Assembly: GCA_028532985.1 (NCBI GenBank)
Contig: JANCIK010000009.1
Span: 2,728,001-2,792,000 of the forward strand
From: Stropharia rugosoannulata
Taxonomy: Eukaryota > Basidiomycota > Agaricomycetes > Agaricales > Strophariaceae
Reading direction: 5' to 3'
Length of the DNA stretch: 64,000 nucleotides
The notes under the pieces were generated by a model. It did not search any database, was not told the DNA's origin, and saw only the letters and a program-made list of their open reading frames with translations. This document shows positions 14,788 to 40,008 of the stretch, in pieces (the first letter of the stretch is position 1; the number at the start of each line of letters is the position of its first letter). A program made the position numbers and the translations under genes.

Positions 14788-14789
14788 TC

Positions 14790-16954: not shown

Positions 16955-17417
16955 TGTAAGGGGACGCTGTGCGTCACCCTTTATTTTATTTCATTTTGTC
17001 TTCCTTCACTTTCTTTTATTTTATTTTATTTTTATTTCTTACGCCGCGCGCAGCCCGTGCAGTGTACACTATGCTCTGCAGTGTGTACTGTGCACAGGCG
17101 CGCGCGGTTTACATCATGTGACGTACTGATGGGACACGTCCATCATGTGTTGTGCATATGATGTATGATGCACATCACATGAGGACGTGATGTGGTGGCT
17201 TCTTGTGGCGGATCAACTGTATAGTTTATTCTCACGCATCAATCAACACTTCTATTATGTACTGTGGCGCCCAGCAGCGGGTTTCCTTAGGCTTTTGTCT
17301 TCGGAATCCCTCTGCTAGGTGCGCTTCTATTGTATTTATAGTTTACAGCTTAATAAACTTCGGAATCCCTCTGCTAGGTCTCGTGTGAGCTCGACACTGC
17401 GCAGAGTCGCCCTTACA
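16955..17417 (+). repeat. GyC 5' LTR
   Basis: 463 bp; pairs with 22709-23179 (471 bp). Most of the length difference is in a TTTTATTTTATTT-rich run near the start. Each LTR contains a direct repeat, CTTCGGAATCCCTCTGCTAG, about 60 bp apart (near 17299 and 17360). It also holds a dense set of CATGTGA/ATGATG words. Confidence 0.92.
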
Positions 17418-17445
17418 GTACAAAAGCCTCTGCCTGGGACCAGTT

Positions 17446-18717
17446 TTGGACGCCTACTGCCTTCGGAAACGGCCTAGGACTCCAACACCCCTCCCTGCTT
17501 CGATGTCGATGGATACAGACGCCTCTGCGAGCCCTGAGGCGGGAAATACCTTGTCCAGACCCGCCCTCACCCTCACGTCGCTTCTGGAGTACGTCGACCA
17601 CAATAACGCGATTTTTCGGAAGGAATTGGCCGACGTTTCGAGCTCCCTTCACACTATCCGCACCCTCCTCGAGACTACACTTGCCAGCTCGCATTCTGCA
17701 CCTGCACCCGCCCCTCCTGCGCCTCGTGATCCCCCTCCTCATCTCGACGCCCACACGGCTCCTGCAGCTGCAGTTCCCACTGTCTCTCGCCTCAAACCCG
17801 CGTCTCCCAAACCATTTGATGGTTCACGCGAAAAAGGGCGCTCTTTTCTTAATTCTTGCACCATTTATTTCGCCCTGGCTGGCTCGCAGTTTCCTGACGA
17901 ATTCTCTCGAGTTCTTTGGGCCCTTTCTTTCATGAATGAGGGCCGCGCCGCCCAGTTCTCGAAACGCGGCATGATGTCTGGATTTTCCGACTTCAATCTG
18001 CGTAGCTGGGACGCCTTTGAAGCCGTGTTCATTCGCGATTTTTGCGAGCAGCACGAGGCCGAGCACGCTCAGCTCGCCCTCGAGAGCACCTCCTACCATC
18101 AAGGCCGCCGCTCTGCTGAAGAATACGTCGACGCCTTCAAGGACCTTGTCCTCAAGTCTGGGTACATTGACGAGAAGGCATTGATTATGAAGTTCCGTCG
18201 TGGTCTATCCCCTTCGCTGGACAGTCAAGTCGCCAACCTGCCCTCGGAGAGTCGACCCGCCTCGCTTCAGGGATGGTATGAACGCGCCGTGGAGGTTGCT
18301 CGCAACTGCGAGACCAACCAGCTCTTCCGCGCGGCACACCCTACGCCTTCTGGTCCCCCCGTGGCTTCGCGTTCATCCGCCTCCCCTGCGACCGTTCCAC
18401 GTGCTTCTCTGCCCATTATTCCTGCCCCTCGCGCGCCCGCTGCCCCTGCTCTTCCTCTGGGCGCTCCCATGGACATTGATCGTGCTCGTAGTGCTGGGAA
18501 GACACCCCCTACCTGCTATCGCTGTGGTAAACCTGGTCACATCTCTCGAGATTGTCCCCGGGCTTTCGACATTCGCCACATGACTCTCACGGAGCTTCAG
18601 GAGCAACTCGAGCACATGCGCACTGCGGAGGGCCAGGAGGATGCTATTCCGCCGGTGGATGAAAGGAAGGAGGATGATGTCCAGGAGGAGGAGGATTTTG
18701 TGCATCGTGACGAGTGA
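17446..18717 (+). CDS. GyC Gag
   Basis: 423 codons from the first frame position; the ATG at 17446 follows the 5' LTR by 28 nt. A Ser/Pro-rich N-terminus is followed by a retrotransposon Gag core (KPFDGSREKGRSFLNSC, FMNEGRAAQFSKRG, RSAEEYVDAFKDL, LIMKFRRGLSPSLDSQV). A single CCHC knuckle (CYRCGKPGHISRDC) lies near residue 360 and the tail is acidic. The stop TGA at 18715-18717 abuts the pol frame, which is -1 relative to gag. Confidence 0.92.
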   Translation: MDAYCLRKRPRTPTPLPASMSMDTDASASPEAGNTLSRPALTLTSLLEYVDHNNAIFRKELADVSSSLHTIRTLLETTLASSHSAPAPAPPAPRDPPPHLDAHTAPAAAVPTVSRLKPASPKPFDGSREKGRSFLNSCTIYFALAGSQFPDEFSRVLWALSFMNEGRAAQFSKRGMMSGFSDFNLRSWDAFEAVFIRDFCEQHEAEHAQLALESTSYHQGRRSAEEYVDAFKDLVLKSGYIDEKALIMKFRRGLSPSLDSQVANLPSESRPASLQGWYERAVEVARNCETNQLFRAAHPTPSGPPVASRSSASPATVPRASLPIIPAPRAPAAPALPLGAPMDIDRARSAGKTPPTCYRCGKPGHISRDCPRAFDIRHMTLTELQEQLEHMRTAEGQEDAIPPVDERKEDDVQEEEDFVHRDE

Positions 18718-21700: not shown

Positions 21701-22697
21701 CTGGCGCCACCATGGTCTCCCTTGGATAGTCCTCTCGGATCGTGGGCCTCAGTTCATTGCCGAGTTCACCAGAGAGCTTTACCGGTTGTTGGGAATCCGC
21801 CTGGCGACGTCCACTGCCTACCACCCCCAATCTGATGGTCAGACGGAGCGCGTTAACATGGAGTTGGAACAGTACTTGCGGACCTTCGTGAATGAGCGTC
21901 AGGACGACTGGGAGGATCTCTTGCCTCTGGCCGAGTTCCAGTACAACAACCATGTCCACGCCTCCACCCAGCATACGCCTTTCATGCTCGACACTGGACG
22001 ACACCCTCGGATGGGCTTTGAACCTCATGAAGCTCCATCGTCTCTGGAGACTGTGAATGAGTTCAAGGAGCGGATGGCTAGTACGTTGGAAGAAGCCAAG
22101 TCAGCGCTGGCTAAGGCCAAAGATGACATGGCTCGCTTCTACAACCGGCGACGTGACCCTCTCCCGGTGTACAAACCAGGTGACAAGGTCTACCTGGATG
22201 CGTCAGACATCCGTACCTCCCGTCCCTCCAAGAAGTTGTCCCACCGTCTCCTGGGCCCGTATACGGTCGAGGCTGCTGTTGGATCTCATGCCTACCGTCT
22301 CAAACTCCCGGTTTCTCTCAAGCGTCTCCACCCTGTCTTCCCTGTTGTCAAGCTCACGCCCTGTCTCCCTGACCCTATTCCGGGCCGCATTGCAGTGCCT
22401 CCTCCGGAACCTGAGCTGGTGGATAACGAGCTGGAGTACGAGGTTGAGGCCATCCTCAACAGCCGCATCCATCGAAACAGGCTTCAGTTCCTCGTCAAAT
22501 GGAAGGGGTATGGGTATGAGGAGAACTCCTGGGAGCATGCGGAAGACGTCTTCTCACCTCAGCTGGTGGCCAAGTTCTACCGGGAACATCCTGATGCTCC
22601 GCGGGTTATTGGCTCCCTGGCAATTGAGCCTGGACAGTATAGAACAGTCAATGGTGGCGAGTGGATCACCTTGCCACGCCGGGACGCCGTGTCTTGA
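18711..22697 (+). CDS. GyC Pol: protease, RT, RNase H, integrase, chromodomain
   Basis: About 1327 aa. Landmarks by residue: retropepsin LVDCGTDQCFI near 96; RT YRVLNAMTIKNRYPLP near 410 and VYLDDILIY near 506; RNase H EADSSDFATGAVLSQ near 654; integrase zinc finger (H..H, CKTCDLC) 877-920; catalytic D in SVDF near 947, D in LSDRG near 1006, E in DGQTERVN near 1041; chromodomain EYEVEAILNSR...FLVKWKGYG near 1241-1295. There is no ATG before the protease; the frame opens at 18711, just before the gag stop. Expression therefore needs -1 frameshifting or another recoding event near 18711-18717. All catalytic residues are present, so this copy may be competent. Confidence 0.95.
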   Translation, partial: RVSGVPSFARGSRYSVLSVEPCESISVPDLPSRLPDTPKSPAPKSLSIAALRIQARARRWERALPSHYTIAATPSPNSLHLPVEIETTDTGQHFRLRPLVDCGTDQCFISRKYVQQHKLTECPLLVPIPVHNVDGSLNEDGSITSIVELILRYKDHTECAVFPVTNLGCQDMILGHTWLREHNPEVDWITGEVKMSRCPRRCSTCHDEIRAEKSKLRAEIRAVETCTQGPMPLLMELEDDDDEVPEMELEEVEPLPAPKDACSLLEALHSVWEDDDNRLFAASLPPESQFIQSTSTVSQRLAEAFASNSGQKDFRDDVPNHLHDFKDVFSKESFDVLPERQPWDHAIELELGATPSNCKVYPMTLPEQKELDVFLQENLATGRICPSKSPMASPVFFIKKKDGSLRLIQDYRVLNAMTIKNRYPLPLVSDLIQQLRGASYFTKLDVRWGYNNVRIKEGDEWKAAFRTNRGLFEPTVMFFGLTNSPATFQTMMNEIFNDLIFKGIVCVYLDDILIYTKTLEEHRRVTRLVMERLRLHRLYLKPEKCEFEKRRIEYLGLIISEGQVEMDPVKIAGVAEWPVPKSCKEVQSFLGFVNFYCRFIEDFSHHARPLFELTCKDTPWLWSSDAQAAFDMLRTAVTSAPILAFPRDDLPYRVEADSSDFATGAVLSQQSREDGKWHPVAYYSKSLSPVQRNYEIHDKEMLAVIRALEEWRHFLEGAAHPVEIWTDHKNLEYFMTAKKLNRRQARWSLYLSCFDFTLRHRPGRSMGKPDALSRRADHGDGTGDNAEMTLLKPAFFAIRALEAVELVGEEKDLLHEIRKGNRQGKHEEMVVKAAKGLLSSGACSVRSSEWRMQDGLLSFRDKIYVPNDPDLRRRIVSLHHDTKVAGHAGRWKTLELVSRNYWWPQMSRYIGQYCKTCDLCIRTKIQRHRPVGELHPLPIPEQRWAVISVDFIVELPLSNGHDTIMNVIDSVSKRGHFIPTTTTVSALGAARLYLCYVWRHHGLPWIVLSDRGPQFIAEFTRELYRLLGIRLATSTAYHPQSDGQTERVNMELEQYLRTFVNERQDDWEDLLPLAEFQYNNHVHASTQHTPFMLDTGRHPRMGFEPHEAPSSLETVNEFKERMASTLEEAKSALAKAKDDMARFYNRRRDPLPVYKPGDKVYLDASDIRTSRPSKKLSHRLLGPYTVEAAVGSHAYRLKLPVSLKRLHPVFPVVKLTPCLPDPIPGRIAVPPPEPELVDNELEYEVEAILNSRIHRNRLQFLVKWKGYGYEENSWEHAEDVFSPQLVAKFYREHPDAPRVIGSLAIEPGQYRTVNGGEWITLPRRDAVS

Positions 22698-22708
22698 AGG
22701 GGGGGTGA
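22697..22708 (+). promoter_or_regulatory. GyC polypurine tract
   Basis: A run of seven G in AAGGGGGGGTGA immediately before the 3' LTR, the expected plus-strand primer site. It begins at the end of pol. Confidence 0.7.
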
Positions 22709-23179
22709 TGTAAGGGGATGCCGTGCGTCACCCTTTATTTTATTTTATTTCATTTCGTCTTCCTTCACTTTCTTTTATTTTATTTTATTTTTATTTTTTC
22801 TTACGCCGCACGCAGCCCGTGCAGTGTACACTATGCTCTGCAGTGTGTACTGTGCACAGGCGCGCGCGGTTTACATCATGTGACGTACTGATGGGACATG
22901 TCCATCATGTGTTGTGCATATGATGTATGATGCACATCACATGAGGACGTGATGTGGTGGCTTCTTGTGGCGGATCAACTGTATAGTTTATTCTCACGCA
23001 TCAATCAACACTTCTATTATGTACTGTGGCGCCCAGCAGCGGGTTTCCTTAGGCTTTTGTCTTCGGAATCCCTCTGCTAGGTGCGCTTCTATTGTATTTA
23101 TAGTTTACAGCTTAATAAACTTCGGAATCCCTCTGCTAGGTCTCGTGTGAGCTCGACACTGCGCAGAGTCGCCCTTACA
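22709..23179 (+). repeat. GyC 3' LTR
   Basis: 471 bp, TGTAAGG...CTTACA, followed by target duplication TTAGC at 23180-23184. Near-identical to the 5' LTR. Confidence 0.92.
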
Positions 23180-23184
23180 TTAGC

Positions 23185-23491
23185 GCGCAACGTACTGTTT
23201 GTGTTTAACGGACTGATGGTGTACTTACAAGTGCATGTCATCAGTGCAGCGGCTTACGAGGTGCTCTTGGGCAGGCCGTTCGAGATCCTCACGGAGAGCA
23301 ATGTGAAGACACGCGGCAATGGAACGGTTGAGCTTACGCTCACCGATCCCAACACACAGCGCAAATTGGTAGTACCCACTTATAACCGAGGGTGCGGTCC
23401 CAAGATTGTGCAGCACGAACCTAAGTTGCAGGACCCTGGCACAACGGAAAACCCTAACGCAGATCAGGATTTTCAATCCTCGATGATTTGA
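23185..23491 (+). pseudogene. GyA protease, C-terminal half
   Basis: After GyC the protease frame resumes as ARNVLFVFNGLMVYLQVHV and AAAYEVLLGRPFEI, closely matching LYFQVHVVDKAPFQVLIGR in GyB. It ends with TGA at 23489-23491. That stop overlaps the pol ATG as TGATG, a stop-restart arrangement suggesting reinitiation for pol. Confidence 0.7.
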
Positions 23492-26400
23492 TGCGTCAAG
23501 GAGAGGTCGCATTGATGTTTGACAGAGATGATCGCACGGGGAAAATAGAGATAGCGGGGTACGTGCTACCAAAGAATAAGAAGCGGTTTGGGAGCGCTGA
23601 GCTCAGGGATGTATACATGGCTCAAGCAGTACACGAGGCAAAGATGGAGGATGATGAGAAAGAAAGAATATACAAGTATTTTCAGCAGCGCGAATGGCGC
23701 AAGGAAGAAGTAGTCAAAGGAGAGCCTAGAGGGCAGTTCCGCGCATCGCACGAGGAACAGGTCCCTAGTAAGAGACGAGGAGTAATGCGTAAGCGCCTGA
23801 CTGGCAAGAATGCCACAACCGTTACGGTGCTCGCAGGAAAGAAGTATAAGCCAGTGGCTGAGAAAGTCAGGCCCATCTATCAAGATTTACCAGAGAAGTT
23901 TAGAATAGTGAGGGAGATAAAAGGAGACCCACTAAAGGACATGCTGCAATTGTCACCACATCTGCCAGACTTCGTACCTACAGGTCGGTACACCGCTGAG
24001 CGCATGGAAGGGATTGACAAAGCGCATGAAGGGGATTTCCTGTGGTCCGAGGAGCGCAAGTTGGTGCATCAAGTTTTCATGCAGCAGAACGAGGCGTTCG
24101 CGTGGGATGACACAGAGAAGGGTAGATTCCATACGGACTTCTTCCCTCCAGTAGACATTCCCACTGTAGAGCACACGCCTTGGGTATTGAAGAACATTCC
24201 GATACCACCTGGGATGTATGAGCGCGTATGTGAATTCATCGCCACCAAGATTCGTGCAGGCACGTATGAGCCCTCGAGCTCGTCGTACCGGTCGCGCTGG
24301 TTTACAGTGACTAAGAAAGACGGGGTCTCGTTCAGAATTGTGCACAGTCTTGAGCCGTTAAATGCAGTAACCATTGCACATTCAGGACTACCTCCAGCAG
24401 CGGAGAGTCTAGCAGAACATTTTGCGGGGCGCGCATGTGGCAGCATCCTGGACTTGTATGTTGGGTACGATGAGCGGCTGTTAGCTGAGTCCTCTAGAGA
24501 CTTGACTACATTCCAGACACTGTTTGGTGCGCTGCGCTTAGTAACCCTACCTATGGGATGGACGAACTCCGTGCCCATCTTTCATGAGGATGTCGCATAT
24601 ATATTACACGATGAAATACCTGAAGTTACAGAGCCCTATATAGACAATGTACCTATTAGGGGACCTAAAACGCGCTATGAGTTAGAAGGGGGAGGATACG
24701 AGACGATACCAGAGAACAAGGGAATAAGGAGATTCGTATGGGAGCACATGTTGAATGTCAACAGAATCGTGCAGCGCATGAAGTATTCGGGAGGAACATT
24801 TAGTGGAAAGAAGTCCATACTGTGCACGGCTGAGATAGTAGTGGTGGGGCACTTGTGCACATACGAAGGGCGAAAGCCAGCACCTGATAAAGTGCATGCA
24901 ATCCTCAATTGGGGGCCATGCAAGAACATCAGTGATGTGCACGCATTCATGGGTACAATGGGTCTGCTCTGTATTTACATCTCAGACTATGCGAAGCACG
25001 CAGAGCACATACAGCGGCTATTGCGTGGGAAAGAGCCCTTTGAGTGGGGGCCCGCTCAGCAAGCTAGCATGGACTCGCTGAAAGACGGTGCGCGCAACGC
25101 ACATTGCGTGAAACCACTGGACTACACACTACCGGGGCCGATTACTTTGGCTGTAGACACATCCTGGCGAGCGGTAGGGTTCTATATTTATCAGCAGGAC
25201 CCACAAGATTCGAAGAAGAGGGTATATGCGCGCTTCGGATCAATACTGTTAACGGAACGCGAGCAGCGCTTCTCACAGCCCAAACGGGAGTTGTATGGAC
25301 TCTTACGTGCGCTACAAGCCTGTTATTACTGGCTCATCGGTGCGCGCAAGCTGGTGGTGGAAACGGATGCCAAATACTTGAAGGGCATGTTGGATAATCC
25401 GGGCATGGGCCCTAATGCGACTATTAATCGCTGGATAGATAAAATACTTATGTATCACTTCCAGTTGAAACATGTTGCGGGCAAAACTTTTGGTGCGGAT
25501 GGTTTATCGCGTAGGGAAGGGCAACCTGGAGATGAGGCGTACGCGCACTCCGAAGAAGATGATGATCAGGCGGTGGGACCGCTCGAATATGAGAAAGTCT
25601 ATGAAGATGACCCAGATCCCCTGGACTTTGAGGAATTCAAGGAACAGATCGATGATCGCGGAGGGTATCTATATACAGGACTCCTCAACGAGTTGTTTGA
25701 AGGTCCCACTGCGCGCAAGTTACCAGAAGCGCGCTCTATGGGCTGTTTCCAGCAGGAGCTCGAGCGCGCACGGAAAGAGACGGAAGCGGAAAAGCGGGCC
25801 GTGCGGGACTTCATACAGAAAGAGAGTGTGCTGCTCGCGCAGCGCGAGTACTTAGAGAAATTCATACTAGCGCACGCGATACCCGACTCCAGAATAGAGG
25901 ATCTGGAGGATGAGGAGTACGATGAGCGCAACAGGACGTCTGCAGGAAAAGATATGGATGAGAAATTGCCGATGATACGCTACTGGTTGCAGAATCCAAC
26001 CACTAGGCCTAAAGGCATGACAGAGCGAGAATATCAGAATTTTACGAGGAATGCTCGTAACTTCTTCTTAGACAAGGATGGGCGGATGTACCGGAGATCC
26101 ATAGACGACGCACATAAGTTGGTGATAGATCAGGCGCAGCGGACACGCATGCTGCGCTCAGCGCATGACAGCTTGGGGCACAGAGGAGCGTACGCTACGC
26201 GCAAATTGCTAGCTGAGCGTTTCTGGTGGCCTGAGTTGGAAAGGGATGTCTACTGGTATGTGAAAACATGTCATGTCTGTCAGTTAAGGCAGAAGACAAT
26301 CATCCAGATCCCGCGCACCGAGACACACACGCCGTCTATCTTCCAGCAACTACACGCGGACACTATGCACATGTCCCCGGCCTCCAATGGGTATAATTAC

Positions 26401-27426
26401 ATAGTGCACGGAAGATGTGTGCTGAGCTCATGGGCAGAAGGGCGGCCGTTAAAGAAAGAGAATGCCCGTGCGATAGTGCAGTGGATATTCGAGGACATTA
26501 TCTGCCGTTGGGGCTGTCTACAAGAAATCATCACAGATAACAGTGGACCATTCCGCGCAGTGCTCAAGTATTTAGAAAAGAAGTATGGGATTACAGGGAT
26601 TACTATCTCCGCGTACAACTCGCAAGCGAATGGAAAAATAGAGCGTCCTCATTGGGACATAAGACAGATGTTGTGGAAAGCATGTGGAGGGACAGAAGGC
26701 GCGCATAAGCATTGGAGTAGATTCTTTTACCATGTGTTGTGGGCGGATCGTATCACTGTGCGACGAGGATTCGGGTGTTCCCCATTCTTCATGGTAATGG
26801 GCACGCACCCCATACTACCATTCGACATAGCAGAAGCGACTTGGCTGGTGAAACTACCAGATCGCGTACTGACTACGGAGGAGTTAGTAGGGTATCGTGC
26901 ACGCGCACTAGCCAAACATCGCGACACAGTAGAGGAGATGCGCGCACGAGTATCAAAGACGAAAAGAGATGCGATCAGGGCATTTGAAAAGAAGCACTCG
27001 GCTAAAATCCGTGACTATGTGTTTAAGCCAGGAGATGTGGTGCTGATGAGGAACTCGGGCATAGAATCCAGTCTGAACCGTAAGATGCTCGCACAATGGA
27101 ACGGGCCTTACATCGTTATCGCACGAAAAGACGGTGGAGCATACTTAGTGGCAGAGATGGATGGCTCTGTGTTGAAGGATAAGGTGGCGGCGTTCCGCCT
27201 CATTCCTTACTTTGCACGGAGGCAGCTGCGCTTACCGGACGGTTTGGATGATATAATTGATCAGACCAAGGAGAACCTAGCTAAAATGTTAGAGGCACCG
27301 GACTATGAGCCAGCTATTCCCAAAGATTATATCTTTGATGAGCCCGGTGTACCCTCGGGTAGCGGTGCGCTTACAGTAGAAGAAGATGAAGAAGACGATG
27401 ATGACTGGGGGGAAGAAGACACTTAG
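23491..27426 (+). CDS. GyA Pol: RT, RNase H, integrase (RT active site altered)
   Basis: 1311 aa from the ATG at 23491. The N-terminal region (VLAGKKYKPVAEKVRP, GDPLKDMLQLSPHLP) leads to RT with RIVHSLEPLNAVTI near residue 282. The RT catalytic motif is Y-I-D-N (residues 383-386, 24637-24648), where GyB has F-V-D-D. RNase H (LAVDTSWRAVGFYI) lies near 553. The integrase has an HHCC finger (HDSLGH...CHVCQ, about 890-930) and the triad D in HADTM, D in ITDNSGP, E in NGKIERP (about 954, 1014, 1047). It ends in a GPYIVIARKDGGAYLV region and an acidic tail, without a chromodomain. The frame is otherwise open, but D-to-N at the second catalytic Asp should abolish polymerisation. Confidence 0.88.
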   Translation: MRQGEVALMFDRDDRTGKIEIAGYVLPKNKKRFGSAELRDVYMAQAVHEAKMEDDEKERIYKYFQQREWRKEEVVKGEPRGQFRASHEEQVPSKRRGVMRKRLTGKNATTVTVLAGKKYKPVAEKVRPIYQDLPEKFRIVREIKGDPLKDMLQLSPHLPDFVPTGRYTAERMEGIDKAHEGDFLWSEERKLVHQVFMQQNEAFAWDDTEKGRFHTDFFPPVDIPTVEHTPWVLKNIPIPPGMYERVCEFIATKIRAGTYEPSSSSYRSRWFTVTKKDGVSFRIVHSLEPLNAVTIAHSGLPPAAESLAEHFAGRACGSILDLYVGYDERLLAESSRDLTTFQTLFGALRLVTLPMGWTNSVPIFHEDVAYILHDEIPEVTEPYIDNVPIRGPKTRYELEGGGYETIPENKGIRRFVWEHMLNVNRIVQRMKYSGGTFSGKKSILCTAEIVVVGHLCTYEGRKPAPDKVHAILNWGPCKNISDVHAFMGTMGLLCIYISDYAKHAEHIQRLLRGKEPFEWGPAQQASMDSLKDGARNAHCVKPLDYTLPGPITLAVDTSWRAVGFYIYQQDPQDSKKRVYARFGSILLTEREQRFSQPKRELYGLLRALQACYYWLIGARKLVVETDAKYLKGMLDNPGMGPNATINRWIDKILMYHFQLKHVAGKTFGADGLSRREGQPGDEAYAHSEEDDDQAVGPLEYEKVYEDDPDPLDFEEFKEQIDDRGGYLYTGLLNELFEGPTARKLPEARSMGCFQQELERARKETEAEKRAVRDFIQKESVLLAQREYLEKFILAHAIPDSRIEDLEDEEYDERNRTSAGKDMDEKLPMIRYWLQNPTTRPKGMTEREYQNFTRNARNFFLDKDGRMYRRSIDDAHKLVIDQAQRTRMLRSAHDSLGHRGAYATRKLLAERFWWPELERDVYWYVKTCHVCQLRQKTIIQIPRTETHTPSIFQQLHADTMHMSPASNGYNYIVHGRCVLSSWAEGRPLKKENARAIVQWIFEDIICRWGCLQEIITDNSGPFRAVLKYLEKKYGITGITISAYNSQANGKIERPHWDIRQMLWKACGGTEGAHKHWSRFFYHVLWADRITVRRGFGCSPFFMVMGTHPILPFDIAEATWLVKLPDRVLTTEELVGYRARALAKHRDTVEEMRARVSKTKRDAIRAFEKKHSAKIRDYVFKPGDVVLMRNSGIESSLNRKMLAQWNGPYIVIARKDGGAYLVAEMDGSVLKDKVAAFRLIPYFARRQLRLPDGLDDIIDQTKENLAKMLEAPDYEPAIPKDYIFDEPGVPSGSGALTVEEDEEDDDDWGEEDT

Positions 27427-27553: not shown

Positions 27554-28871
27554 CTACTGGGCCGGTTTGTCCTCGGTGGCAGTAACGCCAGTAACGTCGA
27601 GGCTGCGCTGCAAGATGACAAGCTGCTCGACGAGGAGCACGCGGCGCTTGAGGATGAAGTCGACCTTGTGGAGATCACAAATGATCTCTGCTTGTAAATC
27701 ACCAATGAGACGGCACGTCACCAACTCGGAAGGGTTACCCGTATTAAGGGGCTCCTTAAGGAGGTTAGCGGCGGCATCAAGACAAGCATTGACCTTGTCA
27801 TTGTCCAAAACGAGAGAAGTGCCTGAGGGAGAAGGGTTAGAAAAGATTAGTAAGAGAGTGGTGCGATGCACGCACCTTGCATAATAAAAGGAGAGTCGGG
27901 GAACGTAGGAACGCCCTCTGAGCCCAGCCTGGCTTTCTTAGGAGAGGCTTCACCTGCGGCGGCGTCACGGAATGAGCAACGAAGCTCGGTCTGACGATAA
28001 GTCATGCCTCGACCAAGGGGACGAGAGCGGTAACCAGGAGTGTCTCCGCGCTCGCGCTGGTATTTCTATAAGAATCTAAGTGCACGCAGCGGAGACGGGT
28101 CAAACACACACCTGTTTAGGAGTATCAGGAGGCGCAGCGCGCTTCTTGTTAGGACTCGGCTCGGGAGTATGCTGCCTGCTGGGAGGACCTCCCTCAGTCG
28201 CGGCTTCAACTTTATCGTCAAGGGCCATCTTTTTGAGGAGCATGTAAAGTTGCATGTTAGTGATGTCTGGTAAAGAAACCAAGGTTAGCCACACCTTGTC
28301 ATCGTCAGAGTCAGGAGATGTAGTACCTCCAGGCGCGGAGGCGGTCTCAAGGTCCGCGGTTGCGGAACGCGTAAGAACGCGAACGTTGCGCTGCGCGCAC
28401 CAAAAAGGGAGATTAAGTATAGAAAGGGTTAGGGAAGGAAGATGAACATACTGGTCCAGTAGGGGTATGGGTGCGCTGACGAGAAGCGGCAGCCTTGGCC
28501 TTGAGGACTTGTTCATGCAAGTTGATAAATGCGTTGGCGGCAGGAGAGAAGGAGCGAATGTGGTGGTCAGCCTCGAGCGACGTATATATGGCTCGAGTCT
28601 CATTGAGTATCTCGATAGCCTCATTGTTGTTTATAACGCGAGTGATACCGCCGTGCGCGTCGCGCCAGCGGTTCTGCAATCGTGCCAGACGAAGTCAGTA
28701 ACATACCACACGGGAACTGCGCGATGCACGCACCAAATCGACAGCAAGTAGCTCCAGACTGCCGGTGTAATTCGCAGGAGTGGCAGAAGCCAACCCACGA
28801 ATGTCCTGGATCAGTGAGAGTTGATGCTTGACATTGGTGAAGTTAAACAGAGGAGCATGAGTAGTAGCCAT
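27554..28871 (-). CDS. asA4: antisense accessory protein of GyA, 365 aa
   Basis: Five exons on the strand opposite to pol, all introns GT-AG: 28734-28871, 28452-28673, 28112-28390, 27876-28065, 27554-27822 (138, 222, 279, 190, 269 nt). They join in frame to 365 aa. The N-terminus (FNFTNVKHQLSLIQDIRG) and C-terminus (NDKVNACLDAAANLLKEPL, GDLQAEIICDLHKVDFIL) look helical and coiled-coil-like. The middle is Pro/Ser-rich with a short basic patch. GyA2 has the same gene with exons 1, 2, 3 and 5 of identical length and closely similar protein (for example TNMQLYLLLKKMALDDK). I recognise no known family. The start 28871 is preferred over 28913 because the TATA box at 28931-28937 would sit too close to the latter. 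Confidence 0.8.
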
Positions 28872-28930
28872 AGTGGTGGTTGAGGAAGTAGGAATAAAAG
28901 GCGATGCGCTCATACAGAAACGGCGAGTGC

Positions 28931-28937
28931 TTATATA
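28931..28937 (-). promoter_or_regulatory. TATA box of asA4
   Basis: TATATAA on the minus strand about 60 bp before the chosen ATG. The relative in GyA2 has TATATATATA 35-44 bp before its ATG. Confidence 0.6.
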
Positions 28938-29370
28938 GCATTCACTGGGATGATCAGCGCTGCGCGCAGCTGGTGACTGACCGAACAGCAGGCCCAAGGA
29001 GTTAAAGGATGGACTTTACAAAAGGGTCCAGATGGGTCATAGCATAGGGCTACACCTGTCTAACGTTACATTCACGGAGATTGAGTGGGATGGAAGGGAC
29101 CTGAATACAAGAGCCCATATAGCAACGAGAAGAAAGGGGAAGATCGTGCGCGCATCGCAGCAAAAGAGTGCGCGCATCAAGGGAGATGCAGGTCTTTCCC
29201 CGTTTGGCAAAATGATGTCCGCTTTGGGAATTGATGCCGAAATTGCATAACAATGTTACCCGACAGTCTTATTTCAAATACAGGGTCATGACACATGTAC
29301 CAAGGAATAGATGCTAGCTATGACTATAGATAGTTATCAATGGAAAGACAGCAAAATGTCAGTTCGGGAA

Positions 29371-29918
29371 TTAAACATCCTAAGAAGTGATTGTCAGGGT
29401 CAGCGCAGCGCACGAGGAGAAAGACCCACAGGAAAGAATTCCTCCTGGTAAAAGACCTGGGCGGCATAGTGGAGTTGTTGGAAGTGTTCAGAGTGAGGAA
29501 GGGTGCTGTAGCGCTCAGCATCTGTAGTACCACACAAGCGCAGGACGAGCTCGCTATAGTGAAGCTGAGCGCACAAGTGCGAGATGCGAGGCGAGTGACA
29601 GGTAGCTTCGGTCAGCGCCAGAGCCCGCTACAAGGATGTCAGAGCTGCGCACGGAAAGGCTGGAGAAGGGGGACATGCGCGCACCGCATGGTCTTGAACG
29701 TGACGCATCATGTCTAGGCAGATGGTCATGGGAAGCAGCGGTTCAGTCGCAGCCTCAAGAATAAAATGAAGGGCGCCTATGTAGATGCGGCAGACGCGCT
29801 CATGATCATCGAGCGGAATATCAGCTAGCGCCCGCTTGGGTAGAGCAGCTAAGCGCAAGAAGGAAGGATCGGACCTTGCGCGTTGAAGGAGATTACTTTC
29901 GGTATCGAAGGAGGGCAT
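29371..29918 (-). CDS. asA3: antisense accessory protein of GyA, 146 aa
   Basis: Three exons: 29685-29918 (234 nt), 29430-29627 (198 nt) and a 9-nt last exon 29371-29379 encoding Asp-Val-stop. Splice sites are GT-AG. The protein is helical (ALADIPLDDHERVCRIYI, MMRHVQDHA, HYSELVLRLCGTTDAE, HYAAQVFYQEEFFP). The GyA2 copy preserves exon 2 at exactly 198 nt and the 9-nt exon (also Asp-Val-stop), which supports the model over simple read-through to a stop at 29400. Exon 1 has the same length (78 codons) as exon 1 of asB1 in GyB, and both end in a His/Asp-rich helix; distant relation is possible. No known family recognised. Confidence 0.75.
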
Positions 29919-29947
29919 AATGATAAAAGACATTCATTTGAAGGATC

Positions 29948-29954
29948 ATATATA
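29948..29954 (-). promoter_or_regulatory. TATA box of asA3
   Basis: TATATAT on the minus strand, 30-36 bp before the ATG at 29918, in the short gap after the asA2 stop (29988). Confidence 0.6.
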
Positions 29955-29987
29955 GCACTAAACGATCCATCAGAGCCGCGCACGGGC

Positions 29988-30468
29988 TCAATCGTAGCTA
30001 ATATCATCTACTACAAGGGCAGCATCGGGATCTAAGTCTAGAAGGGCGGTCCCTGTTGGTTCCGAGGGTGGGAGATTGTGAAAAGGCATGCCAAGATGGC
30101 TGTACCGATCGAGAATGTGAAGAGCGGCGTTGCTGAGCATGCGCGCATCGAAATGATCATCGCTGAATCTGCGCTGAGCGCGGCCTTCGTAAAACACGAT
30201 CGTCATGACTAAAGACAGGAATTGGCGGTTGAAGTCGATAAAGCGCAAAGGCAGTGTAATGCGATCCTGGAGGAAAACGTCAGTAGAGGAAGCGCTTGCA
30301 TGAGCATAAGGACTTTACCAGTGCGCGCACGAGGGACTGAGCAGACTGTAGAGGAAAGTGAAAAGGGCCGTTGTTGCAGTCCTCTGCGAGCTCTGCATGA
30401 ATGGCGAGTTGTCTCAGTAAAACAGTGAATTGGCGAGCGACAGCGGTGCGCTGATATCGGAGAGACAT
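29988..30468 (-). CDS. asA2: antisense accessory protein of GyA, 142 aa
   Basis: Two exons, 30319-30468 (50 codons) and 29988-30266 (92 codons plus stop), joined by a GT-AG intron of 52 nt. Exon 1 is basic and helical (RYQRTAVARQFTVLLRQLA); exon 2 contains LRFIDFNRQFLSLVMTIVFY and ends in an acidic tail (DLDPDAALVVDD). It lies between asA1 and asA3 with its own TATA box. I do not recognise a family; size and two-exon layout resemble asB2 and asB3 of GyB. Confidence 0.7.
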
Positions 30469-30506
30469 GTAAGGCAGTAAAGAAACTGTCAACTGGGGAC
30501 AGTTGA

Positions 30507-30513
30507 ATTTATA
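30507..30513 (-). promoter_or_regulatory. TATA box of asA2
   Basis: TATAAAT on the minus strand, 39-45 bp before the ATG at 30468. It sits beside a G-rich tract (30514-30525) resembling the GyA polypurine tract at 33521-33534. Confidence 0.55.
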
Positions 30514-30529
30514 GTGGGGGGGAGAGATG

Positions 30530-30877
30530 ACCTAGCCAAGCACAGATAAAACTAGGTGCTTAAGGAGATACGGCAGGAAGATCAGAAGCGCCGTTTGACG
30601 GGCAAAGACAAGCAAGTGTGCATCCCCTACATGCGCGCTTCGCACGGACGCACGTTCAAGAAGAGTCAGTTGCTAGGAACTCCCTTAAGAAAACAGAACA
30701 CTTAGAATTAGGATCACACAAGAGGGAGACAAAAGAATCATTAGAAAGCATATAATAGTAAACATAACTATTCTACATATGCTAGATAGAATAGTAAGGA
30801 GGAGACAAGAAGAAGATAAAAGTCAAAGCGCCTAATGCGCGCATCGCAGCACGACCCAAGAACACATAACAAAACAC
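30530..30877. other. Spacer between asA1 and asA2
   Basis: About 350 bp between the stop of asA1 and the promoter of asA2, AT-rich, with GCGCGC-type motifs at about 30632 and 30838. No gene seen; it should contain the asA1 terminator. Confidence 0.5.
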
Positions 30878-32981
30878 CTAGGCTCCCGTCGCGTTCTCCT
30901 CCTCACCACCAGAAGCCTCAGGGCTCGACTCGGGAACCACGGATGCGGACTTATAAGGACGAGAGGGAGCTTTCCCTTTGCCTTTTGAAGGAGCTTTCCC
31001 TTTGCCTTTCGAAGAACTCGCTTTGGAGGCGGTGGGACTGGAAGTGCGCTGCGCGCGCGGGACAGCCTTGGTAGTGGTGGAAGGTTGGCCAATGGACTCC
31101 GAGTTAGGGGGCTCGAGACAGGGATGTGCGGGATCATAAAAAGACGCGCGAGGAACAAACTCGATGGGATACTCGGGATCCAAGGGCTGGCAAAGCGCAT
31201 CGTACGACGCGCAGAGAGCTGCGACATCCATGGACCGGAGCGCATCAAAAGTCTCGCAGTCAGCAAAACGAGACCCAATGATGACGTTAGTAGGCATAGT
31301 TGTTGCCATAGCCTGGGCCAATTGCACGAGCTGAATAAGTTCAGCAAAGTGGAGACGCTCGAGGCCTCGACGAGTCTCCTCCGCAGCGCGCGCCTGCTGT
31401 CGGTAGGCCTCGAGACGAGCGAACGATGCGCGTAGCTCTAAAAAAGACAAGTCAGAAAGGAAGATGGAAGGAAAAAGGAAGCGCGCACCGGTGGGGGATG
31501 TGCGGTGCCAACCTGCGGATCCCTCTAAGGCGCGGTCGAGCTCGGGGCCAGTCATTGCCTGGAAACAGGGACCGCGACTGTCGAGGCGGCATTTAGCGCA
31601 CTTCTTACCAGGACCGCGCAGCAAGCAAAAGATCCTATGAGGTGCTAACTTGCCAGAACTGTCGGAAGAACGATCGCACAGAGAACAGGAGAGACCAGGC
31701 TGGATAAAAACATAAGTCAAGCAGAAGTAACCGAAAAGATGAGGAAAACTTACCACAACTGCAGCCTCTAAGTGATTCTCAGAGGGGAGCTGAGCCATGG
31801 AAATGGCATCTGGAAGGGGTTGGCCAGCTAAGGCTAGAGAAGCCGAATAGACTCCTGGGAGTAGGTTGTACACAGGGTAAGTGGAGTCATAGGTGACCTT
31901 GGAAGAGTCAACTCCCTCGAGACGGGAGAGCTCGGCCACACCGCTAGAGGAAGGAACTAAAGGGACGACCTTGGTGCGCGCACCCTTTTTCGTCGGAGCC
32001 GATGCGCGCTTTTTAGAAGGCCTGGCGAGCACCTGTGGGGCAGCTAAACGGGTATTAAGTACGAGACAAAAAGCCAGGAAAGAACACATACCTGGGGGGG
32101 GAGCGCCTTTGCGCGCACGCGGGACCTTGGGGACGGGGGGAACAGGCAAAGTCGAGAGAGGAACGAGGCCAGTGCGCTTACGCTTGACGGAAGCAGCAAT
32201 GGGGGTATCGATAACCTCGGGAGAAGCCCGCGCGGAAGGTGGTGGGGTGGCGACGGGAGACGGGCGCTTACGCTTGGAGAGGGCCGTGGGCGCGGGATCG
32301 ATGATTATGGGGGACAGGGGCCGAGCAGGAGGAGAAGGGGAAGGAGGCGGGGGAGTGGAAGATGCGCGCATCTGTTCGGGAGGGGGTGGGAGTATCGCTT
32401 CGACACGACCGCTCACCTCCCCCTCCGGCGCCAGCATCTCGACGTCGCGCGTGGACGATTCGAGGGGTATGAATTGCAGACGGGGCTCTGGTTGAGCCCT
32501 AGGCGACCAGGAGGAGGGGAAGGCGGTAGCAAAGGCGGCCTTATAAGAAGTCAACTATGGAAGGGGGGCGCTCAGCGCAGGTTATGATGAGAAAGGCGAG
32601 AAGGGAACTTACAGGTTCTAGCACAGGCTCTGTAAACCATAAAGCCCGCCGAGTAATGTCCTCGGAGTTCCAGCCAAAGACAGGGTCGTTGTCATTAGCA
32701 GCCAAGTGGGACAATATGAGGGCGAGCTCACGCGTTCCGGCGTGGTGAGTACCGTCGATGGGGAATGCGCGCACATGCCTCTCGACGGCGAGGCCGAATT
32801 GTTCGCGGAGAGATGCGAATTGAAAGACTTCTTCGGGGGTCAATTCATTCCGAGCGCCAAAGTCCTCGAAGGCATCATATTGGGCAAGGATGGGGCGGAG
32901 TCTGTGGAAGTGATCAGCGCGATCCAGTGTGCGCTCGTCTTTCTGAGTCTTGAGGAACTTGTTCACGCCGCAGAAAGCCAT
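30878..32981 (-). CDS. asA1: antisense protein of GyA with cysteine cluster, 630 aa
   Basis: Five exons with GT-AG introns: 32613-32981, 32092-32554, 31754-32043, 31489-31699, 30878-31437; they join in frame to 630 aa. Introns 2-4 (48, 54, 51 nt) are multiples of three without stops, so one long frame also spans them. Intron 1 (58 nt) is not, and fixes the link to the N-terminal domain (KDERTLDRADHFHRLRPILA, TPEEVFQFASLREQFGL). A long Pro/Ser-rich, basic-patch region (several K-R-K-R clusters) follows, then a cluster C-x2-C-x16-C-x8-C-x2-C-x7-C (exon 4), a coiled-coil-like stretch, and a Lys/Ser-rich tail. The Cys cluster plus basic regions suggest a zinc- and nucleic-acid-binding nuclear protein. 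That is inference. asB4 of GyB has a similar cluster. Confidence 0.75.
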
Positions 32982-33082
32982 GAAGCGTTTGTGATTCGGG
33001 GTAAGAGAAATGTGAGAGAAGCAGGGAGGATTTAATAGAGGGAAGCGAGAGAAAGAAAGAACGAGAAGGACAGAGGAACTTG

Positions 33083-33089
33083 TTATATA
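33083..33089 (-). promoter_or_regulatory. TATA box of asA1
   Basis: TATATAA on the minus strand, about 102-108 bp before the ATG at 32981. The leader between them is rich in C and T, as in many fungal 5' leaders. Confidence 0.5.
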
Positions 33090-33520
33090 GGCAGAAAAGA
33101 ATAGCGAAGGAAAGTTCTGGAGTAGGGGAGAAGCGGACGGCGATGAGCGCATGTCGAATAAACTTACCGGCGATATGCTAGGACAGCGTGACGGAAAAAG
33201 AAGGTCCAACAAGGTCCGGAAAGGGAAAGAAAAGGGCCTGACTAGGGAAATGACCCAAGCAGGAGGTCAACGGGGAGCGCGAGGCGCATATGAGTGCGGT
33301 GGCGGTTGTCTAAAAATAAATTAGTCGAGAAAAATGGGCGGGGATGCCTAAAGAGGAAACCAAGGGGGTTGGGTAGAGATAGTGTCTCGGACAGAGGCGT
33401 CGTAATGGATCACATAAGGCAGTAGCTGGGCCTTCTGAATACAGAAGTAGGGAAGCCTGGTGAATTGCTAGTGAGGATGCGATGCGCGCACCTGAAATTG
33501 ACTGAGGACAGTCAAGATTT
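33090..33520. other. GyA upstream region of antisense block
   Basis: About 430 bp between the asA1 TATA box and the polypurine tract. No gene is supported. It holds GCGCGC-type motifs (for example near 33484). Confidence 0.4.
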
Positions 33521-33534
33521 TAGTGGGGGGGAGA
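33521..33534 (+). promoter_or_regulatory. GyA polypurine tract
   Basis: TAGTGGGGGGGAGA directly before the 3' LTR. A diverged copy of this tract and its left flank occurs internally at about 30485-30530. Confidence 0.7.
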
Positions 33535-34723
33535 TGACAGGGCTGCTTTTTGGCTACGGGTGTAAACAGTTAGAAGGTCCGTTAGTGGGATAGCTGCGCG
33601 CGGGAAACACAGAGAGACTAGAGTTGAGCCTGCCTCACAGTCTATAGCTATCAGCGCGCGAGCATCATGACTACAAGCGCCTGCGCGCACTGTATCGCGA
33701 GAAGGATTGGTCAGCGAGCTGCACAGTCTAGAGTGCATAGTTTGGCCGTCTGTGCGAGCGATCAGGGAAGCGTAGAACGGTTAAGCACCAGCAAAGAGCG
33801 GTGTGAGTACAGCTGAGCGGATACCAAAGGCAGTGTGAAGGGCTGTGCGCGTATCTCATATGCGCGCATTGCAAAGGCAGAATTTGTCTAAGTCCACACA
33901 TCATGTGACCGTGGCGGCGCGCATCAAAAGACGCGCAAAAGCCCGAGGGAATGAACGACATGCGCGCAGCGAATGCCAAGGGATCAGGACACTCGAAGGG
34001 AAGCCCGGAAGCGATGCGCGGACCTTTGGCCGCACGTTGCTAGTATTTACTTTACCTTATTATTAGTACACAGGCGCGCATCGCATATAAACCTGTATCC
34101 TTGTCTATAGTAATTTAAGCAATTGTCTACCCACTAGATCTGTGTGCTGGGTTCTGTCCCAGGCCGTCAGCGGGCTGTGTTTAGCTTTTGTTAGGGTTTT
34201 AACTGTGAGGTATTTGTGAATCATAGGAGTTTTGGATAGCTTCTGGCCACCGGGTCAATTGGAGAGCTCAGTGAGGAGTCAGTACAACCGTGTACGGAAA
34301 CTTGCACTGTAGTGTTTAGACTGTGAGACTGCACCACCGGGTGAAAGACTTTGGAGAGTCCGTGCATCGTACGAGGTCACCGGACCCGGAAGTGCGCGCA
34401 GCGAAGCTGTTCGCTAAAAACAACTTATTTCATTTATCATTTTGCTTTGTGCACGCCACTAGCAACCGGGCTCTATCCGAGATTTACTAGAATTAAACCC
34501 CTCCTTACAAACGAACTTGCAGGCACTACTTGCTATTACAAAGACTAGAGGACACGAGGTGCGTGCATCGCATGCCCAGAACGGGAACCAGAGCAGGGCA
34601 TAGATTATACTACTATTTAGTTGAGGGTGTTCGCTTGATCTAAGGGATAGGATCTCGCTCCGCTGGGTGTGTGTGTGTGTTGTGTTTTGCGAGTTCGAAT
34701 CTAGCTACGCAGTAGACCTCTCA
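33535..34723 (+). repeat. GyA 3' LTR
   Basis: 1189 bp, TGACAGG...CTCTCA, followed by duplication CTGC (34724-34727). It contains eight GCGCGC hexamers (near 33596, 33653, 33682, 33861, 33917, 33962, 34073, 34393). Confidence 0.92.
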
Positions 34724-34727
34724 CTGC

Positions 34728-36071: not shown

Positions 36072-36430
36072 CCCATGAGTGTCTGCCTCCCGCTGCTTAA
36101 CCAAGTTCAAGATCACGCCATAAGCCCCTTCTCTGCTGGCCATGCACTCCCACTGAGTAGTCTGCGCAGCAAGACCTAGAACTGACCGAGTCCACCTGTC
36201 ACTCACCACATCTGTCTCATCTCTGCACTCAGCTCTATTACACCGAACTTGTGCTGCATCTGTGTGGTACCAACAATGCTGAGTGTTATGGCATTCTTAT
36301 TCACACCAGACACTTTCAATGCCTCCACTATGCTGCCCAGCATTTCTACCAGGAGGACTTCTTTCCTGTCTATCCCTTTTTCTCTTCATTCTCTGCTGTG
36401 CTGAGACCATGATTATGTCAGGACGTTTGA
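36072..36430 (+). pseudogene. asA3': antisense accessory gene of GyA2, 5'-truncated
   Basis: Reads as the end of exon 1 (36072-36119, PMSVCLPLLNQVQDHA against PMTICLDMMRHVQDHA in asA3), exon 2 (36170-36367, 198 nt, with HYAAQHFYQEDFFP) and a 9-nt exon 3 (36422-36430, Asp-Val-stop). Exon lengths equal those of asA3. The first donor is AT instead of GT and exon 1 is cut by TIR copy 1, so this copy is broken, but exon 2 has no stop. Confidence 0.75.
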
Positions 36431-40005: not shown

Positions 40006-40008
40006 ACG

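Follow-up and report, generated by a model that had tools for sequence, protein, structure and literature searches.

The Ty3/Gypsy retrotransposon GyA, an element of about 15 kb within the 64,000-nucleotide stretch of Stropharia rugosoannulata DNA analysed here (the window), carries four spliced antisense genes (asA1 to asA4) between pol and its 3' LTR. Comparison of its copies shows that these genes are under purifying selection. It also shows that the backbone varies far less than asA1 and the region upstream of it, which together make up a cassette whose variants are old and recombine. We give roughly even chances to the view that the four genes constitute an accessory module whose target is the element that carries it, and in which asA1 would be an exchangeable specificity gene. 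The initial annotation had proposed an intron-bearing, conserved accessory gene set convergent on gag-pol and present in two families, which is borne out below; it did not include the most unusual parts, namely the allelic asA1 cassette, the polypurine tracts that border it on both sides, and the dispersed motifs particular to each family.

Table 1. Features of GyA and of the related GyA2 copy, in window positions.
Feature	Position	Strand	Basis or detail
5' LTR of GyA	13573..14791	+	95.2% identity to 33535-34726
Nested 6.2-kb Gypsy element inside GyA, outside the antisense block	16955..23178	+	borders from sequence
Rest of GyA pol (RT, RNase H, integrase)	23179..27426	+	PF17919, PF17917, PF17921
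Antisense gene block asA1-asA4	27554..32981	-	gene models and copy comparison
asA4, 365 aa	27554..28871	-	exons 28871-28734, 28673-28452, 28390-28112, 28065-27876, 27822-27554 (138/222/279/190/269 nt)
TATA box of asA4 (CTATATAA)	28931..28938	-	TATATAA in 20/20 copies
asA3, 146 aa	29371..29918	-	exons 29918-29685, 29627-29430, 29379-29371 (234/198/9 nt)
TATA box of asA3	29948..29955	-	TATATAT in all 19 copies listed
asA2, 142 aa	29988..30468	-	exons 30468-30319, 30266-29988 (150/279 nt)
Internal dyad TCAACTG-GGGA-CAGTTGA	30489..30506	.	in most site-bearing copies and GyA2 L029
TATA box of asA2 (TATAAAT)	30507..30513	-	18/18 covered copies; between dyad and tract
Internal polypurine tract AGTGGGGGGGAGA, left border of cassette	30513..30525	+	tract search, breakpoints
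Hyper-polymorphic asA1 cassette	30560..33480	-	62-99% identity between GyA copies vs ~95% upstream
asA1, 630 aa	30878..32981	-	exons 32981-32613, 32554-32092, 32043-31754, 31699-31489, 31437-30878 (369/463/290/211/560 nt)
TATA box of asA1	33083..33090	-	TATA at -99 to -119 in 19/21 copies
3' dyad TTGACTG-AGGA-CAGTCAA	33498..33515	.	sequence
3' polypurine tract AGTGGGGGGGAGA, right border of cassette, adjoining LTR	33522..33534	+	tract search, breakpoints
3' LTR of GyA	33535..34723	+	rich in motif TGCGCGCA
asA3 3' part, window's GyA2 copy	36072..36430	+	interrupted by insertion
asA4, window's GyA2 copy	61949..63262	+	exons 138/222/279/(exon 4, donor unfit)/269

GyA combines an LTR pair with a polypurine tract ending directly at the 3' LTR, as LTR retrotransposons do, and its domain order, RT-RNase H followed by integrase, is that of Ty3/Gypsy elements; Ty3 is the top match of its pol among solved structures (5.9e-29). 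The Gypsy element nested within it has direct repeat pieces (78-96%) at its ends. That the minus strand holds four real spliced genes, as had been claimed from the window, follows from the conservation of frames and splice sites in the copies; the introns number 11 rather than the ten first counted. All seven introns of asA2-asA4 differ by 2.5-8.8% substitutions, most with small indels, and every GT/AG is unchanged in 20 copies, some partial. Two splice models of asA2 are compatible with the window, and only the 150/279 model has invariant GT/AG in the copies: the splice sites of an intron at 30346-30295 vary, those of 30318-30267 are constant. Likewise, asA1 allows five 630-aa models in the window, and the alternative exon sets were dropped in favour of the one whose exon edges recur in other types. 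Its exon-3 donor GT, exon-4 acceptor AG and exon-5 acceptor AG are each found in 21/21 copies; at the homologous base, the donor GT is present in 17/21 for exon 1 and 15/21 for exon 4, and absent in 4/21 and 6/21, respectively.

TATA boxes upstream of the genes, noted initially, recur in nearly all copies (Table 1), that of asA2, about 39 nt before the start codon, reading TATAAAA in the GyA2 copy L029. For asA1, the first 200 nt upstream contain no TATA in the copies L024 and L029. Since a separate TATA box precedes each gene, four antisense transcription units are likelier than one, judging from sequence; in the earlier picture of two convergent units, the convergence on gag-pol stands and the single antisense unit is the less likely part.

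The frames are more than chance open frames, as codon-position bias, low pN/pS and the invariant intron GT/AG of asA2-asA4 attest. Across the 20 copies fetched from the same genome, some of them partial, in which the expected conservation of frames and splice sites was indeed found, divergence at codon positions 1/2/3 is 1.9/0.8/7.0% in asA4, 2.6/0.9/5.1% in asA3 and 5.0/1.2/6.8% in asA2; the end of pol gives 1.3/1.9/7.8%. In frame, pN/pS is 0.12-0.23 for asA2-asA4 and 0.11 for pol. Control values are 0.65-3.3 in same-strand shifted frames of asA2-asA4 and, on the sense strand, 0.60-1.09 and 3.0-3.1, with 0.17-0.35 in the frame that has common third positions. Indels are rarely gained in the antisense exons. 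The asA4 C-terminus has 97 matches genome-wide, of which 90 span at least 73 of 84 residues and 95 are stop-free; asA4 is present in about 90 copies. One copy, L018, is decayed, with CpG loss and a deletion of about 390 bp in asA4.

The second family, GyA2, extends this conservation. Its copy L029 has all four genes in the order of GyA, with amino acid identities of 77% for asA4 (one stop), 68% for asA3 and 60% for asA2. Between families, dN/dS is 0.09 for asA3 and 0.05 for asA4, the latter, a comparison proposed at the outset, being not near 1; the asA1 exons give 0.27-0.62 with synonymous sites near saturation, pointing to weaker constraint than on asA3 and asA4. The exact exon lengths reported for the window's GyA2 copy hold for asA4 (138, 222, 279 and 269 nt) and for the 9-nt last exon of asA3; for asA3 exon 2, an AG permits 198 nt along with five other lengths. 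A mechanical model search of this asA4 returned nothing because the exon-4 donor does not fit, and the exon lengths were instead read off from the exon boundaries. This copy is truncated, 36072 falling mid-exon and adjoining a terminal-inverted-repeat insertion.

The proteins resemble little that is known. Pfam returned a convincing match for none of the four, and TRP28 (PF04195) matched none of the spliced proteins at E up to 1. The asA1 protein has basic KRKR runs, a six-cysteine stretch in exon 4 and a long helix in exon 5. The six cysteines are present in 11/11 rows, with a first loop of 14-16 residues. In the Zn2Cys6 (Gal4-type) cluster the first half is CX2CX6C; with that loop and no Pfam match, asA1 does not fit this profile. 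Alignment A2 was misaligned and excluded from folding, the exon-4 rows alone being used. The predicted model of exon 1 is poor (pLDDT 62); that of exon 5 comprises a 45-residue helix plus short helices, and matches no fold better than E 2.2. Solved structures searched by sequence with the asA1 exon-1 profile and with asA4 gave no match. Protein searches found no homologue of asA4 or asA1 and 1262 relatives of pol, an absence that says little because the collection appears to have been called without introns. Scans of viral contigs with pol, A3 and A4 yielded no confirmed relatives.

Within GyA, asA1 is hyper-polymorphic: copies that share about 95% identity upstream diverge by as much as 37% in this part. 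Cassette statistics are based on 19 GyA-type copies, including the window and L030, plus L029, correlations and types being drawn from the 19. Exon 1 falls into 13 types in 19 copies. Between types, dS is near-saturated at 1.3-1.8 and dN/dS is 0.08-0.15, which excludes relaxed constraint within GyA, and the asA1 pieces have no stop codons across types. Hypermutation is likewise rejected, since same-type pairs (6-14 per exon) have a mean pS of 0.06-0.08, resembling the 0.08-0.12 of the backbone. In sliding windows over 16 copies (without L029, L026, L030 and L021), the average mismatch stays at 2-7% as far as 30.4 kb, apart from a final bin of 10%, rises to 17-38% between 30.55 kb and the 3' tract, and falls to 8-10% in the LTR. 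Pairwise identity inside the cassette is uncorrelated with that upstream (r 0.02, 19 copies), exons 1 and 5 correlate with a rho of 0.05, and their trees differ in groupings; three GyA2 rows stay separate from the GyA types. GyA2 repeats the pattern: in 27 paired of 32 copies, identity is 90-100% (median 98) for the asA4 C-terminus and 50-100% (median 53) for asA1 exon 1. An asA1 partner was found for 44/57 GyA and 27/32 GyA2 asA4 matches, fragments and other-family rows being excluded. It is the depth of the alleles, by itself, that suggests balancing selection on asA1 types; introgression from unsampled lineages would resemble it.

A polypurine tract and a dyad flank the cassette on either side. 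The outer bases of the internal dyad are mismatched in L010 and L018, and a search of the window, L029, L030 and the 20 fetched GyA copies did not find the tract pair in L011, L020 and L024. Genome-wide, 153 tract-plus-dyad sites were found and none for the reversed pattern; among 100 matches listed, 70 make 35 same-strand pairs 2.8-3.15 kb apart. Breakpoints were taken from the first 70 listed type-different pairs whose cassettes are at most 0.80 identical, L026 and L029 being left out. On the left, 48 lie at +14 to +92 nt of the internal tract, none left of it, and 22/70 deeper in the cassette; on the right, 36 lie at -101 to -21 nt of the 3' tract, 27/70 deeper and 7/70 beyond it. We found neither a fused nor a reciprocal tract junction, and a simple loop-out of the cassette between the tracts was rejected on that account. 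Lentiviruses and Ty1 have central polypurine tracts, which the internal tract resembles as a second purine-tract copy, with plus-strand priming putative here; unlike those, it overlaps a TATA box. The internal tract may accordingly be only a promoter, and it is a serious contender, somewhat short of even odds, that tract and dyad serve asA2 alone, as a duplicated relic that contributes neither to reverse transcription nor to the exchange of cassettes. In both families it is the internal copy that contains the TATA box, at the distance from asA2 given above; none is present in the 3' copy. Nevertheless, a TATA promoter could dispense with the 13-nt purine tract, yet the tract is kept at both places and changed identically in GyA2 (AGTGAGGGGGAGA), and the cassette border falls just past the internal tract in most pairs (48/70).

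Each family also has its own dispersed motif. TGCGCGCA occurs 25 times in GyA against 0.5-1.5 expected, and not at all in GyA2; CCGCTGAG occurs 19 times in GyA2 against 0.4-0.9 expected, and the core CAGCGGA 41 times in GyA2 (1.6-3.7 expected) and six times in GyA (2.6-2.9 expected). GCGCGCA sites per kb amount to 9.3 in the 3' LTR, 5.7 in the 5' LTR, 7.6 in antisense noncoding DNA, 3.6 in antisense exons, 3.0 in pol and 1.6 on the gag side, and TGCGCGCATCGCA is found 337 times genome-wide, its reversed pattern never. Only 3/18 motif positions are common to both families (2.4 expected, P 0.41), from which we conclude that sites were gained independently. VANDALs are DNA transposons. In the accessible text on VANC/VANDAL of Arabidopsis, VANC21 binds a dense, family-specific short motif in noncoding parts that differs between related families (PMC5735166), as the motifs of GyA and GyA2 do. 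It is possible, if rather unlikely, that asA proteins bind the scattered motif (TGCGCGCA in GyA, CYCAGCGGA in GyA2) and, like VANC, hold the element in an active, unmethylated state, with asA1 diversity reflecting an arms race with the host. The motif excess, particular to each family, its noncoding density and its independent gain favour this. Against it, motif CpGs are as divergent as other noncoding CpGs (8.9 and 9.1%, P 0.51, a weak test with 24 motif sites against 84), giving no sign of selection on the sites; these figures leave out the decayed L018, which a second calculation includes. Moreover, the motifs of GyA and GyA2, known from sequence alone, are dispersed while those described for VANDALs are often tandem repeats (PMC5735166), and GyA copies of different cassette types have the same motif, so asA1 is not an obvious motif reader.

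Under the reading we favour, that of an accessory module acting on GyA itself, antisense orientation would let introns be retained through retrotransposition, because the genomic RNA would carry them in reverse. The asA proteins would be nuclear and would target the DNA or RNA of the element that encodes them, with asA2-asA4 as common machinery and asA1, given its basic runs, six-cysteine stretch and coiled-coil-like helix, as a specificity factor determining which copies are restrained or protected. Rare asA1 types would be favoured, much as in Ty1 copy-number control or phage immunity types, the latter a parallel for rare-type advantage, and many types would therefore persist. When co-packaged genomes are reverse-transcribed, cassettes may pass from one copy to another, a process that a second plus-strand start at the internal tract would assist. 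A bolder form, which we hold to be distinctly unlikely, makes asA1 a multi-allelic self/non-self locus of the retrotransposon. Negative frequency-dependent selection between copies of the element would keep its alleles diverse, and the locus would be swapped in one piece because the two polypurine tracts delimit a plus-strand DNA segment of its own during reverse transcription.

The diversity could instead be neutral or introgressive, old asA1 blocks of several diverged lineages having been recombined onto a recently expanded backbone without selection. We regard this as improbable, though well short of negligible: mosaic Ty1-Ty1' elements are documented, as far as the accessible text goes (PMC7055915), and recombination in the cassette is frequent, judging from the low rho and discordant exon trees. 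However, the pattern is present in both families, it touches a single block, the end of pol, asA2-asA4 and the LTR varying far less, 13 exon-1 types exceed the yield of few donors, and the three GyA2 rows remain apart. That the genes are captured host genes, passive cargo without role for the element, would suit the lack of known domains and the gene capture by retroelements discussed in the accessible part of PMC7264820; purifying selection near that on pol, conservation between families in the same order and the many asA4 copies make it very improbable. The same partial source allows that antisense RNA may regulate some retroelements (PMC7264820). An RNA acting through dsRNA silencing, with incidental open frames, is nevertheless extremely improbable here given the codon-position pattern, the frame-keeping exons and the exact splice sites.

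HTLV-1 HBZ is spliced. A single antisense gene, where GyA has four, it is likened to them by layout, not by sequence; it encodes a nuclear protein of an LTR retroelement, according to the accessible text (PMC11963269). The accessible descriptions of plant Grande and Retand place antisense ORFs between pol and the 3' LTR, the position and orientation seen in GyA, and report for Grande gene23 its own promoter and a nuclear product with a suggested regulatory role. Most Retand antisense ORF clusters encode TRP28, for which asA proteins lack a Pfam match, and those descriptions mention neither introns, of which asA1-asA4 have 11, nor an allelic cassette, which GyA has. The function of such plant genes is unsettled in the available portion of PMC7264820. 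Among fungi, Boty-like Gypsy elements of Botrytis have the antisense gene brtn (Zhao et al. 2011, cited in PMC7264820, PMC8365987), the one additional gene named in the accessible text against four in GyA, the comparison being by description. The initial claim of novelty is narrowed by this precedent; it holds insofar as our searches of the open-access literature found no fungal Gypsy element with an antisense block of several spliced genes. Ty1 copy-number control offers a self-encoded specificity factor with diverged versions on recombinant mosaic elements, a pattern that asA1 shares, its specificity role being putative; in the accessible text the Ty1 factor is gag-derived with two main gag types (PMC7055915), while GyA has a separate antisense gene of many types. 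Antisense accessory genes are thus already known from Grande, Retand and Boty brtn, and what is unusual in GyA is the allelic asA1 cassette.

The spliced antisense layout provides a clean natural case of intron keeping by a retroelement, and the roughly 90 copies within a single genome, the existence of two families and the marked allelic structure make function approachable by population genetics and open to testing. Should the self/non-self reading be true, asA1 would be to retroelements what immunity regions are to phages or mating-type genes to fungi, in parallel in two families. If asA1 is a specificity cassette, retroelements would hold a system akin to immunity types, by which selfish elements recognise their own kind.

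GyA, the Ty3/Gypsy element of the window, measures about 15 kb once a nested 6.2-kb Gypsy insertion is discounted. In its pol, Pfam identifies RNase H and integrase domains; an RT stretch can be aligned with Ty3, the closest relative of solved structure. Metagenomic collections hold 1262 proteins related to this pol (64-89% identity among the 120 listed); the majority of those 120 have no RVT_1 (PF00078) or rve (PF00665) match, and by sequence the relatives appear to be a large, barely named Gypsy clade.

Coordinates of GyA and of other repeats in the window
Feature	Position	Remarks
GyA, Ty3/Gypsy element	13573-34723	LTRs 95.2% alike
Nested Gypsy element in GyA	16955-23178	upstream of remaining pol frame; 300-bp LTR piece 96% alike
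GyA pol	23488-27426	
asA4, asA3, asA2, asA1	27554-32981	minus strand, between pol and 3' LTR
asA1 cassette	30560-33480	hyper-polymorphic
AGTGGGGGGGAGA, internal	30513	
AGTGGGGGGGAGA, 3'	33522	
0.94-1.04-kb element, inverted ends (CATCAGGAAAA...TTTTTCCTGATG)	35130-36071; 60797-61837	two copies
965-969-bp sequence	39041-40009; 44877-45845; 55205-56169	three copies at 99%, middle one inverted
Satellite-like 51-bp units	46835-50554	within large inverted repeat
Arms of this inverted repeat	47304-48109/49234-50039; 46835-47304/50040-50509	100% complementary

The initial annotation had proposed four intron-bearing genes, asA1-asA4, antisense to gag-pol. When positions 29000-30000 were used as a query against the genome (48 Mb, 20 contigs), 74 candidates were obtained and 40 matches scored; 20 copies besides that of the window, some partial, were read. 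Across copies, substitutions in asA2, asA3 and asA4 fall mostly at third codon positions, as in pol, and pN/pS is 0.232, 0.168 and 0.124, respectively, against 0.113 for the pol end. Control frames on the same strand, shifted by one or two bases, gave 0.65-3.3, and those on the sense strand 0.60-1.09 and 3.0-3.1. The sense frame that shares third positions gave 0.17-0.35, above the antisense frame in every case, with stops in 9, 5 and 4 copies for asA4, asA3 and asA2 vs. 1, 1 and 3 for the antisense frame (1/19, 1/20 and 3/20 copies; 4/17 for the pol end). Exon indels are few (8, 1 and 3 nt in asA4, 3 nt in asA3, 2 and 1 nt in asA2) and outnumbered by those in introns, and the GT donor and AG acceptor are unchanged at all seven asA2-asA4 introns. 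The predicted TATA-like boxes were found ahead of asA4 in 20/20 copies, of asA3 in all 19 printed, of asA2 in 18/18 covered and of asA1 in 19/21. Third-position bias, low pN/pS and invariant splice sites in asA2-asA4 bear out the antisense proposal. The four genes are real; their introns stand as well, at 11 in total rather than the ten first counted.

The RNA stage of the retrotransposon cycle is expected to remove spliced introns from sense genes. The introns of asA2-asA4 are kept in the copies, local deletions aside, and would survive retrotransposition because the genomic RNA does not carry antisense introns as introns. The anatomy fits an element that moves by its sense RNA and uses the asA genes from the opposite strand.

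All four genes are also present in L029, the copy from which the second, diverged family GyA2 was read, with intron breaks at the same places wherever both families can be aligned. Amino-acid identity to GyA is 77% for asA4 (which has one stop in L029), 68% for asA3, 60% for asA2 and 37-53% for asA1 exons. Synonymous sites are at or close to saturation in these comparisons. The asA4 exon lengths said to be common to GyA and the window's broken GyA2 copy were indeed measured (138, 222, 279 and 269 nt). One of the two elements with inverted ends adjoins the broken asA3 exon 1 of that copy.

The asA1 cassette behaves differently from the backbone of the element. Blast alignments of most copies to the window are lost from ~30.58 to 33.0-33.47 kb, being unbroken in L022 and L017. 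Among 16 copies, mean mismatch is 2-7% at 26.5-30.4 kb and 10% in the bin preceding the internal polypurine tract. Between 30.55 kb and the 3' tract it climbs to 17-38%, falling back to 8-10% in the LTR; 20-base bins place the steps near both tracts. Among 19 copies, cassette identity is uncoupled from upstream (r 0.02) and LTR (r 0.06) identity, and each segment falls into 9-13 types at a 93% cut (13 for exon 1). Types agree between exons 3 and 4 (rho 0.86); those of exons 1 and 5 do not (rho 0.05), and copies group differently in the trees of these two exons, so recombination has also occurred inside the cassette. Genome-wide, median identity of paired GyA copies (44/57) to the window is 96% at the asA4 C-terminus vs. 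76% at asA1 exon 5, and that of paired GyA2 copies (27/32) to L029 is 98% vs. 53% at asA1 exon 1. In L030 (G000:C8:1006500-1013600), asA1 is GyA-like at 88% and the asA4 C-terminus reaches just 71%, suggesting that variation may, in rare cases, extend to asA4.

Decay of the asA1 types is ruled out by a median dN/dS of 0.08-0.15 between them and by aligned pieces free of stops; genome-wide, 7 of 97 exon 5 matches contain stops. Hypermutation is likewise ruled out, as 6-8% of synonymous sites are substituted in same-type pairs (6-14 per exon), comparable to the backbone. With median dS of 1.3-1.8 between types, these are therefore old variants under constraint.

The cassette borders are marked by the polypurine tract AGTGGGGGGGAGA, found twice in the window (0.03 expected allowing up to one mismatch), each time preceded by a dyad of 7-bp arms around a 4-base centre. 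The dyad arms are unlike (internal TCAACTG/CAGTTGA, 3' TTGACTG/CAGTCAA); both occur in L029, where both tracts read AGTGAGGGGGAGA. A pattern covering the GyA and GyA2 forms has 153 genomic sites, and its reverse none; among the 100 sites listed, 70 form 35 same-strand pairs spaced 2.80-3.15 kb. For 70 type-different pairs of copies, the left change-point lies 14-92 nt past the internal tract in 48, deeper in the cassette in 22 and before the tract in none; the right one lies 21-101 nt ahead of the 3' tract in 36, deeper in 27 and beyond it in 7. No fused or reciprocally joined tracts were found genome-wide by exact pattern. The internal copy may be a promoter, a plus-strand primer, or both; a promoter role is possible since the asA2 TATA box sits within it. 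If it acts as a primer, plus-strand synthesis would yield the inter-tract stretch as a piece of its own, which co-packaged genomes could naturally exchange as a unit.

Each family is also studded with its own motif. TGCGCGCA, often followed by NCGCA, occurs 25 times in GyA (0.5-1.5 expected) and is absent from GyA2; L029 carries CYCAGCGGA, with 41 CAGCGGA cores (1.6-3.7 expected) vs. 6 in GyA (2.6-2.9 expected). GCGCGCA is densest in LTRs and antisense noncoding parts, at positions not common to the two families. Genome-wide, TGCGCGCATCGCA has 337 sites (reversed control, 0), and the 100 listed cluster at GyA copies or in LTR-like triplets. The GyA copy L018 has mostly lost GCGCGCA (5/0/3 in upstream/cassette/LTR vs. 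9-24/5-17/6-17 in other GyA copies), as if decayed by deamination. L026, which joins a pol-side part with GyA2-type motifs (15 CAGCGGA) to a GyA asA part, would be either a recombinant or two abutting elements.

None of the asA proteins has a convincing Pfam match (best, asA3 at E 0.12). asA1 contains basic KRKR runs, six cysteines in 11/11 exon-4 rows and a modeled 45-residue helix (mean pLDDT for the whole model, 79.7), features that would fit a nuclear, dimeric, nucleic-acid-binding regulator; membership in the Zn2Cys6 family is ruled out by cysteine spacing and by profile. Its allele structure argues for a role in specificity, and self-regulation with a specificity cassette appears most likely. 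Ty1 copy-number control provides a precedent for a factor of this kind that diverges and is spread by mosaic elements (PMC7055915). An anti-silencing role of the asA module comes next, and both could be true at once. The motif pattern of the two families resembles VANC target motifs (PMC5735166); motif CpGs vary among copies as much as other noncoding CpGs, which counts against reading them as binding sites.

The block had been thought undescribed in fungal Gypsy elements. This holds for multi-gene or spliced antisense blocks, none of which came up for fungi in searches of open-access literature, and not for single genes: one has been named in Botrytis (PMC8365987), and plant elements carry antisense genes in the same place (PMC11963269, PMC7264820). 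Searches of that literature for tract-related recombination or for mosaic and balanced retroelement variants gave none either, and the asA1 cassette may prove to be more than a variation on known antisense genes.
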